From: Candidatus Uhrbacteria bacterium RIFCSPHIGHO2_01_FULL_63_20 | Lineage (GTDB): Bacteria > Patescibacteriota > Patescibacteriia > UBA9934 > GWF2-40-263 | Length of the DNA stretch: 33,847 nt | NCBI GenBank assembly: GCA_001791045.1 | Contig: MGDT01000007.1 | Span: forward strand, 199,445-233,291 | Reading direction: 5' to 3' | Part shown: in pieces, positions 1,035 through 21,860 of the stretch | Layout of the letters: every line of letters begins with the position of its first letter | How positions within the stretch are numbered: position 1 is the stretch's first letter | Notes under the pieces: model-generated | The model's input: only the letters and a program-made list of their open reading frames with translations | The model's database searches: none | What the model was told of the DNA's origin: nothing | Program-made: the position numbers and the translations under genes

Positions 1035-2384
1035 ATGAAACTCTACACTCCGATTACGGGAAAAGTCGAACGTCTCGCGCACGACGGCAGCGGGGTGATT
1101 TCGCGTCCCGAGGGCAAGCCGGTGCTCGTATATAACACCATTCCCGGTGAAACCGTGAAGGCGAGGATGTTCAAACGCTCGAAGGAGGGTCTGCGCGCGG
1201 AACTGGAAGAGGTGGTGGAAGCCTCGAACGATCGCATCGCGCCGCGCTGTCCGTACGCGGGCACTTGCGGCGGGTGCAAATGGCAGCACGCGGGGTACGA
1301 CGCGCAGCTGCGCTTCAAGCTGGATATTCTGAAAACCGATTTCGCCGAAGCGAACGTGCCGTGCCCGATTTCTTCGGTCGAACCGGCCGTTGAGCAATTC
1401 TATTACCGCAACCGCATGGACTTCGTGTTCGGACGTGACGGCGAACTCGGATTGAAACAGCCGAACAAATGGTGGGCCACGCTGGATCTCGAGACCTGTT
1501 TCCTGTTGTCCGAAGAATCCGTCGAGGTGATGAAACGCGTCCGAGAATGGACGCGGGCAAGCGGACTTCCCTTTTGGAACGCGAAAACGCAGCAAGGGTT
1601 CTTCCGGTACCTCGTGATCCGTGAAGGCAAGCGCACCGGAGAGCGGATGGTGATGCTCGTCACGGCTTCCCCGTCACCAGGTGACGGGGAGACCCTTATA
1701 AACCAACTTCCGAAGCTGCTCGGCTCCCTCGCCACGTCCGTCGTCTGGGGCATCAACCCGACGCTCACGGATCTCTCCGTCGCGGACGAAATCATCCCGC
1801 TCAAAGGTGACCCGTGGATCCACGAAGATGTCGGCGGGATCCGCTACAAGATCACGCCCAACGCGTTTTTCCAGACGAACTCGGGAATGGCCGAACGACT
1901 GCAGGCGACCGTCCTCCGTCATTGCGAGGAGGCCGCAAGCCGACGAAGCAATCTCACAGTGCTGGATCTTTACTGCGGTTCCGGTTTCTTTTCCCTTGCG
2001 CTCGCGAAGCGCATGCCAGACGCGAAGCTTATCGGCATCGAGCTTTCGGCCGAAGCGATCGCGTGCGCGAAAGAAAACGCCTCGGCCAACGGCGTCACGG
2101 CGGAATATTTCGCCTCACCGGCCGAGGACTTCGACTGGAAGGGCTACGCGCCGGACGTGGTGATCCTTGATCCCCCGCGGGCTGGGTTGCATCCGAGCGT
2201 TGTTGCAACTTTATTGCAAATGCAACCAAGTTGCATTGTCTACGTCTCCTGCAACTATCGCCGGTTCCTACAGGAATGGAAGGAACTTTCCAAGGTGTAC
2301 ACCCTCGACTCCGCCGCCGCCCTCGACCTGTTCCCCCACACGCCGCACATGGAATGCGTGTTTCGATTGACGAAACGGCCGTAA
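1035..2384 (+). CDS. rlmD: RlmD/RumA-type 23S rRNA (uracil-5-)-methyltransferase
   Basis: A 449-residue protein. Residues 1-60 form a TRAM-like RNA-binding domain. Cysteines 72, 78, 81 and 155 match the four ligands of the [4Fe-4S] cluster of the RumA family. The Rossmann methyltransferase half has FFQTN (278-282), VLDLYCGSGFFSLAL (309-323), VVILDPPRAGLHP (375-387) and the catalytic cysteine in VSCNY (Cys406). The family makes m5U in 23S rRNA by a covalent cysteine adduct, with SAM as methyl donor. RlmD and RlmC/TrmA-like specificity cannot be told apart by eye. Two dispersed repeats are embedded in frame: a REP palindrome at residues 212-219 and repeat family A at about 295-307. Both lie in loops, so the enzyme looks intact. 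Start ATG at 1035, with no Shine-Dalgarno. Era follows after 22 nt. Confidence 0.87.
   Translation: MKLYTPITGKVERLAHDGSGVISRPEGKPVLVYNTIPGETVKARMFKRSKEGLRAELEEVVEASNDRIAPRCPYAGTCGGCKWQHAGYDAQLRFKLDILKTDFAEANVPCPISSVEPAVEQFYYRNRMDFVFGRDGELGLKQPNKWWATLDLETCFLLSEESVEVMKRVREWTRASGLPFWNAKTQQGFFRYLVIREGKRTGERMVMLVTASPSPGDGETLINQLPKLLGSLATSVVWGINPTLTDLSVADEIIPLKGDPWIHEDVGGIRYKITPNAFFQTNSGMAERLQATVLRHCEEAASRRSNLTVLDLYCGSGFFSLALAKRMPDAKLIGIELSAEAIACAKENASANGVTAEYFASPAEDFDWKGYAPDVVILDPPRAGLHPSVVATLLQMQPSCIVYVSCNYRRFLQEWKELSKVYTLDSAAALDLFPHTPHMECVFRLTKRP
1668..1690. repeat. REP palindrome inside rlmD-like gene
   Basis: A perfect palindrome with two 11-nt arms (TCCCCGTCACC and GGTGACGGGGA) around a single A. 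The same arms around a single T occur at 21020-21042 and 21689-21711, next to the RAYT transposase. Here it is read in frame as SPSPGDGE, the same octapeptide that the RAYT gene encodes near its own C-terminus. Confidence 0.93.
1918..1954 (+). repeat. Palindromic repeat family A, copy 2, inside rlmD-like gene
   Basis: GTCATTGCGAGGAG and CGACGAAGCAATCT flank a 9-nt centre. This is the same family as 661-694 (minus strand). It encodes RHCEEAASRRSNL, directly before the SAM-binding motif VLDLYCGSG, where related enzymes have an ordinary linker. Confidence 0.85.
2206..2240. repeat. AT-rich palindromic patch near the end of the rlmD-like gene
   Basis: ATGCAAC-CAA-GTTGCAT (2220-2236) is a perfect 7-3-7 inverted repeat, preceded by GTTGCAACTTTATTGCAA. 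Base use in this stretch is much more AT-rich than in the rest of the gene. It encodes ATLLQMQPSCIV, which keeps the expected family length, so it replaces sequence rather than adding to it. Confidence 0.55.
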
Positions 2385-20962: not shown

Positions 20963-20968
20963 ATTGTA
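20963..20968 (-). promoter_or_regulatory. Putative -10 element of the coiled-coil/TraG operon
   Basis: TACAAT on the minus strand, 9 nt before the ATG at 20953. A REP palindrome (20980-20996) starts 11 nt upstream and overlaps the region where a -35 box would lie. Confidence 0.5.
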
Positions 20969-20979
20969 ACACAGTCCAA

Positions 20980-20996
20980 CCGTCACTTGGTGACGG
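20980..20996. repeat. REP palindrome, outer left
   Basis: CCGTCACTTGGTGACGG. It contains the TGA stop codon of the transposase gene and encodes its last residues, VTK. Confidence 0.95.
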
Positions 20997-21684
20997 GTAT
21001 GGCTTGATTCCATTGATCCTCCCCGTCACCTGGTGACGGGGAGAGCTCGAGATAGCGCCGATACACCTCTCCCGTCGGAAACCAGGTTCGGACAATTTTC
21101 TCGTCAACGAGCGGCAGCTCCTGCTCGTCTGTCGAGTAGAAATGGTGGCTGGACCAAGGATATGCATCGAGAACCGCATGGCCGCGTGTCCAGTCGAGCT
21201 TCCCATCGTCGCGCCAGGCGATTTCGGTTCCGTCCAAAGCGTTCATATGGATGTAGCGCGGCAGCCATTGGAAATGCGCCTCTGATTGCGCCGGTTTAGC
21301 ATTGAACTGGCTTTCGAACAGGCTGCCGGTCCGATCGTATTTCAAGTTGAAATATTTGGCGTATCCCATGCCGACCCGATGAAGGAACTTCGATATCCCT
21401 TCTTCGACGCATTGCTGCAACAATAGATGAAAATGATTCCTCATCAGGCAATATGCAACGATACGCACCAATGGTTTCCGATCATCAGACAAGACTTCAT
21501 GTGCCGACAAACGGATGTCCTTTTCTATCGAGTTTCCTCCTGCGTGAAAATAGGTCTGGTCGTTGAACAGGTACATCGACTCATAAAAACGTCGAAAGTC
21601 CTGCTCGCCGCAAAAAATCGTGCGTTTATCGACCCCACGGTTATACACGTGATAATAGGATTCCGTGTCGAACGGTTCTCGCAT
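20983..21684 (-). CDS. REP-associated tyrosine transposase (RAYT, Y1_Tnp family)
   Basis: A 233-residue protein of the IS200/IS605-related Y1 transposase superfamily. It has YYHVYNRGVDKRTIF at the N-terminus, the HUH metal motif in YCLMRNHFHLLL, the catalytic tyrosine region MGYAKYFNLKYDRTGSLFE and PRYIHMNAL. RAYTs cut and join single-stranded REP hairpins (established for the E. coli TnpA-REP protein). The C-terminus LELSPSPGDGEDQW is encoded by the inner left REP, and the last codons and stop by the outer left REP. GGGGAGG from the inner right REP lies just before the ATG and is the likely ribosome binding site. Confidence 0.93.
   Translation of the reverse strand: MREPFDTESYYHVYNRGVDKRTIFCGEQDFRRFYESMYLFNDQTYFHAGGNSIEKDIRLSAHEVLSDDRKPLVRIVAYCLMRNHFHLLLQQCVEEGISKFLHRVGMGYAKYFNLKYDRTGSLFESQFNAKPAQSEAHFQWLPRYIHMNALDGTEIAWRDDGKLDWTRGHAVLDAYPWSSHHFYSTDEQELPLVDEKIVRTWFPTGEVYRRYLELSPSPGDGEDQWNQAIPVTK
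21020..21042. repeat. REP palindrome, inner left
   Basis: Arms TCCCCGTCACC and GGTGACGGGGA around a T. It is read in frame as SPSPGDGE within the transposase gene. Confidence 0.95.
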
Positions 21685-21688
21685 ATCC

Positions 21689-21711
21689 TCCCCGTCACCT
21701 GGTGACGGGGA
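21689..21711. repeat. REP palindrome, inner right
   Basis: The same 23-nt palindrome as 21020-21042. Its left arm forms the GGGGA Shine-Dalgarno of the transposase gene on the minus strand. Confidence 0.95.
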
Positions 21712-21735
21712 AAGGCGCTAATTCATTGGGCGTAC

Positions 21736-21752
21736 CCGTCACTTGGTGACGG
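21736..21752. repeat. REP palindrome, outer right
   Basis: CCGTCACTTGGTGACGG, identical to the outer left copy. Confidence 0.95.
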
Positions 21753-21761
21753 AATGTTCGG

Positions 21762-21860
21762 TCACAAGAGGGCCTCGATGTCCGCCCGGGACGCAAGCTC
21801 TCGCTCCTTTTTATTCCCCATGCCCATATCCTCGGGCGTTGGTCCCGGTCGTTCCGGCAT
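21762..21860 (-). CDS. Putative 32-residue protein after cysS
   Basis: The ORF starts 2 nt after the cysS stop (TGA-AT-ATG), the same junction as between VKOR and the 81-residue gene. The product begins MPERPGPTPEDMGMGNKKER and ends ASRADIEALL. It is polar and charged, with no membrane segment. Tight coupling and sensible composition support it, but there is no homology evidence. It ends 10 nt from the outer right REP of the RAYT element, so it might instead be the remains of a longer gene. Confidence 0.4.
   Translation of the reverse strand: MPERPGPTPEDMGMGNKKERELASRADIEALL

Follow-up and report, generated by a model that had tools for sequence, protein, structure and literature searches.

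A probable REPtron/TIRtron-type element in Candidatus Uhrbacteria: a Y1 transposase gene closely bordered by cognate palindromes

The window (the whole stretch of DNA analysed, 33,847 nucleotides) belongs to a Candidatus Uhrbacteria genome of 0.86 Mb. Between cysS and the promoter of a coiled-coil/TraG operon, it carries a transposase gene framed by short palindromes (Table 1). The palindromes are perfect or near-perfect, two per side, and are arranged as mirror images around the gene. Their common core, CCGTCAC(CAA or CAG)GTGACGG, is found four times at the element (20980-20996, 21023-21039, 21692-21708 and 21736-21752). Ten strand-matches to it were counted in the window (0.41 expected; number reached by none of 100 shuffles). 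The inner copies form an inverted repeat of 24 nt (96% complementary, 644 nt apart) and the outer copies one of 20 nt (85% complementary). The mirror arrangement given in a preliminary description of this DNA is borne out by these coordinates and by this complementarity; the translation of the left inner copy and the stop codon in the left outer copy, also given there, can both be read directly. No promoter for the transposase gene was found between 21684 and 21900.

Table 1. Features of the element, of its surroundings and of one distant palindrome copy in the window.
Feature	Position	Strand	Remarks
Outer palindrome, 5′ side of the gene, CCGTCACCAAGTGACGG	21736..21752	-	
Inner palindrome, 5′ side of the gene, TCCCCGTCACCAGGTGACGGGGA	21689..21711	-	4 nt from ATG
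GGGGAGG, SD-like	21687..21693	-	2 nt before ATG; mostly within the 3′ arm of the inner palindrome
HUH Y1 transposase gene, RAYT/TnpA-REP-like	20983..21684	-	233 aa; HFH 84-86, Y144, N148
Inner palindrome, 3′ side of the gene, CTCCCCGTCACCAGGTGACGGGGAG	21019..21043	-	Translated: SPSPGDGE
Outer palindrome, 3′ side of the gene	20980..20996	-	Holds the TGA stop codon, 20983-20985
Extended -10 of the coiled-coil/TraG operon, TGTTACAAT	20963..20971	-	Hexamer starts 15 nt before the ATG of the operon
32-aa ORF between cysS and the element	21765-21860	-	
Fifth palindrome copy, TCCCCGTCACCAGGTGACGGGGAG	1668..1691 (core 1671-1687)	+	In frame in an rlmD/RumA-like RNA methyltransferase gene, 1035-2384

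The transposase matches the Pfam family Y1_Tnp above the cut-off, and its sole PDB profile match is TnpA-REP (4er8, E 1.8e-4). With the NCBIfam REP transposase model NF047646, it reaches 29 bits (E 7.8e-7), below the cut-off of 80. H84, H86, Y144 and N148 are invariant in a comparison of 32 homologs: the HUH and Y-x-x-x-N motifs are present. In RAYT/TnpA-REP proteins, the catalytic tyrosine lies about 58-67 residues after the HUH motif (PMC6006769); the same spacing, with Y-x-x-x-N, is found here. Residues past about 212 are not conserved in the 32-homolog comparison. Most of the nearest named homologs come from Candidatus Uhrbacteria; the other homologs encoded by the same genome (G000) are 46% and 38% identical to the protein. 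The assignment as a RAYT with REP-like palindromes, already made in the preliminary description, is supported by the Y1_Tnp and 4er8 matches and by the palindromes found beside homologs.

The element is absent from the cysS site in relatives. When this junction was compared, as had been proposed earlier, the coiled-coil gene and its promoter (an extended -10 or a similar one) were found shortly after cysS in G001 (same genus) and other relatives, without any transposase gene. The element would have arrived at this site by transposition. The -10 hexamer of the operon (TACAAT, 20963-20968) is conserved at the empty site of relatives and lies 11 nt from the left outer copy, in agreement with the adjacency noted at the outset. 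The window also contains, beside the element and between cysS and the -10, about 110 nt with a 32-aa ORF; this ORF was rejected as a conserved gene, as no match was found in 39 relatives.

The genome contains six copies of the palindrome, two of which are located away from the transposase gene, one within rlmD and the other in the ftsA-ftsZ interval; neither of these two is mentioned in the preliminary description. Both are single and unpaired. None of the six copies has a GTAG or GTGG tetranucleotide beside its stem. The rlmD copy is also read as SPSPGDGE. The gene that carries it is about as long as its orthologs, with no net change of length; a clean insertion of 24 nt is therefore not supported. 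The sixth copy (L006 1498-1520; G000:C3:18028) stands where relatives carry the terminator stem of ftsA; the T-run and the subsequent -35 are kept, and AATTTTTTT comes after the copy on the gene strand. In G001, the palindrome of the L021 type occurs in two further pairs (G001:C1:113904/114003 and 505842/505941; L201, L209), with exactly the 99-nt spacing seen in the pair that precedes the gene and an unrelated 82-nt interior. An empty site for the paired copy next to L201 was searched for and none was found. A copy in tsaB of G001 adds only about three residues. In three elements of another genome (G039: L046, L049, L050), the spacer between paired copies, CCCTATAAACATTGAT, is common to differing palindromes; ACCCTTATAAACC, after the rlmD copy of the window, resembles it, possibly by chance.

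The survey of homologs includes 100 non-identical genes with enough flanking DNA; they come from relatives as well as the named genome collection. The longest word common to the two flanks of a gene has a median length of 21 nt, against 8 nt for swapped flanks. Palindromes cognate to the gene were found on both sides in 79 of these 100 homologs, and their sequence varies from gene to gene. Palindrome similarity tracks protein identity (Mantel r 0.33; maximum of 2000 permutations, 0.12). CTTAG or CTAAG is present in 28 of these 79 flanking palindromes (4.6 expected from arm shuffles).

Two pairs of orthologous loci were found. L024 and L025 share 76% nucleotide identity over 2.5 kb, and their transposase gene has an RNase H gene on one side and pilM on the other; all palindromes differ in concert and the gene is kept. 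The upstream RNase H gene of both loci receives its end and its stop codon from the 5′ palindrome. L009 (G000) and L021 (G001) are the second pair whose palindromes differ in concert; those of L009 also differ from those of the window element, which belongs to the same genome. The C-terminal tails at orthologous loci differ along with the palindromes and the gene is still open. The repeats differ together while the gene stays, therefore their change is tolerated: the gene is kept and the repeats around it turn over. As to the earlier claim that every REP change affects expression or protein length, the tail did change with the palindromes at these loci, and the gene remained open.

Of the 79 homologs, 30 have a palindrome that reaches into the end of the coding sequence, and in 24 it contains the stop codon. 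Palindrome coverage is 24 at the stop, climbs to 47 at 20 nt past it and then falls (peak 10-30 nt downstream), the stop position being a shoulder of the distribution. Palindrome frames with a stop number 108, against a mean of 100 for arm-shuffled palindromes, i.e. without enrichment. Hence, a selected role of the palindrome as stop codon is unsupported. Because the palindromes peak 10-30 nt past the stop, their overlap with it looks like crowding rather than design, and the C-terminal tail is read here as a probable by-product of tight packing. The supply of a stop codon and a tail by the repeat, as described earlier, is thus real and recurrent in relatives, but without any sign of selection for supplying the stop.

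SD-like motifs were found before the start codon of only four of the 100 homologs. They are palindrome-derived in two: the window gene and L013 (G007), whose GGAG is 5 nt from the ATG. In L011 (G016), GGGAG lies beside the palindrome. Among the window genes, 5 of 27 have such a motif (starts taken from the ORF list). A -10-like hexamer is present near the start of 39 of the 100 homologs, whereas shuffles give about 12; most of these hexamers are at -12 and -13, where leaderless genes would have them. Several window genes of the minus strand (6142, 20953, 23245) have a -10 hexamer 15-16 nt before their ATG and no SD, which suggests, from the sequence, near-leaderless transcripts in the lineage. 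The lineage uses SD motifs rarely and often appears leaderless. Around the start codon of the window gene, the predicted RNA fold reaches -21.9 kcal/mol (51-nt stretch; z -3.3), with GGGGAGG paired in the palindrome. Because only 2 nt separate it from the ATG and a strong hairpin includes it in its 3′ arm, this motif is most likely masked rather than offered as a ribosome-binding site. A general role of the palindrome as ribosome-binding site was rejected on the SD counts. The right inner copy had been proposed to provide the ribosome-binding site: GGGGAGG does lie just before the ATG, but the rarity of SD motifs, the 2-nt spacing and the pairing in a hairpin leave the proposal weak. Relatives with a different ribosome-binding site or none, named beforehand as evidence against it, were found.

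The element is probably of REPtron/TIRtron type: a TnpA-REP-like HUH/Y1 tyrosine transposase whose gene is tightly bordered on both sides by cognate palindromes of its own. The enzyme would most likely act on these palindromes as single-strand hairpins. Owing to the tight packing, those on the 3′ side are read as a non-conserved C-terminal tail and a stop codon, as the reading frame itself displays, and the inner 5′ palindrome would become the mRNA leader. Such a leader would most likely lower translation by an IS200-like masking, by analogy with the leader studied in PMC8450116, the SD-like GGGGAGG being in the 3′ arm of the stem. The small number of copies (six), the missing GTAG/GTGG, the NF047646 score below cut-off and the negative promoter search count against this reading. 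An improbable explanation is that the palindrome is a functional ribosome-binding site and stop signal, substrate and expression signals being one selected sequence. The position of GGGGAGG directly before the ATG, the stop inside the outer palindrome and the motifs of L013 and L011 are in its favour, but it is opposed by the scarcity of SD-like motifs in homologs and window genes, by the many homologs with a -10 at about -12, by the 2-nt spacing and by the peak of the palindromes past the stop.

Even less probable is that the element is an ordinary IS200/IS605 insertion sequence that has subterminal hairpins and moves as one unit. The Y1_Tnp fold, the hairpins at both ends and the site empty in relatives would suit it; however, the genome has no identical copies, its homologs differ strongly from one another, L009 has other palindromes, and tnpB is absent next to the transposase gene. 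The near-identical multiple copies per genome of IS200/IS605 elements are not seen here. The enzyme might also replace hairpins already present by its own palindrome, besides inserting it. This is improbable; it is considered because the ftsA-ftsZ copy occupies the place of a terminator stem, the length of rlmD is unchanged, tsaB gained about three residues and the palindromes at two orthologous loci differ together.

REPtrons (RAYT/TnpA-REP with flanking REPs; Nunvar 2010, PMC2817692; Bertels and Rainey 2011, PMC3116915) likewise have a HUH/Y1 transposase without identical copies and cognate palindromes on both sides, and the G001 pairs, with their fixed spacing and variable interior, follow the REPIN pattern (PMC3116915). 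In contrast to REPtrons, the window element has no GTAG/GTGG tag by the stem, its palindromes are perfect with a centre of 1-3 nt, and its six copies are far fewer than those of classical REP families, without dispersal in many copies. TIRtrons (Di Nocera 2013, PMC3733652) are tyrosine transposase genes (TIRYTs) with inverted repeats on both sides; the repeats are diverse, in part self-complementary and not related to GTAG REPs. For some of them, an overlap with the 5′ or 3′ gene end is indicated, and a genome may have several TIRYTs, each with different repeats. The window transposase is likewise flanked by inverted repeats of non-GTAG type, but TIRtrons were described from complete genomes of other phyla, whereas the present set is from Patescibacteria (Uhrbacteria and others). 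The same work also reported transposase genes flanked by REPs, ORFs that end at a stop codon supplied by a REP and ORFs with a REP in their interior, so the principle of overlap between repeat and gene end is already known. In ISPpu9 and IS200 (PMC8450116 and works cited there), the transposase start region also lies in an mRNA hairpin; theirs is a leader structure and was tested experimentally, whereas here the repeat itself would form it, as predicted from sequence. No earlier description of the patescibacterial set or of concerted palindrome change at orthologous loci was found in a limited literature search.

The homologs constitute a large set of patescibacterial transposases, most of which are paired with a palindrome of their own that varies along with the protein. 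They provide many natural enzyme/substrate pairs for studying hairpin choice by TnpA-REP proteins, including orthologous loci where the substrate changed and the gene stayed. In these compact genomes, repeats commonly overlap the ends of coding sequences, which does not have to make the repeat an expression signal.
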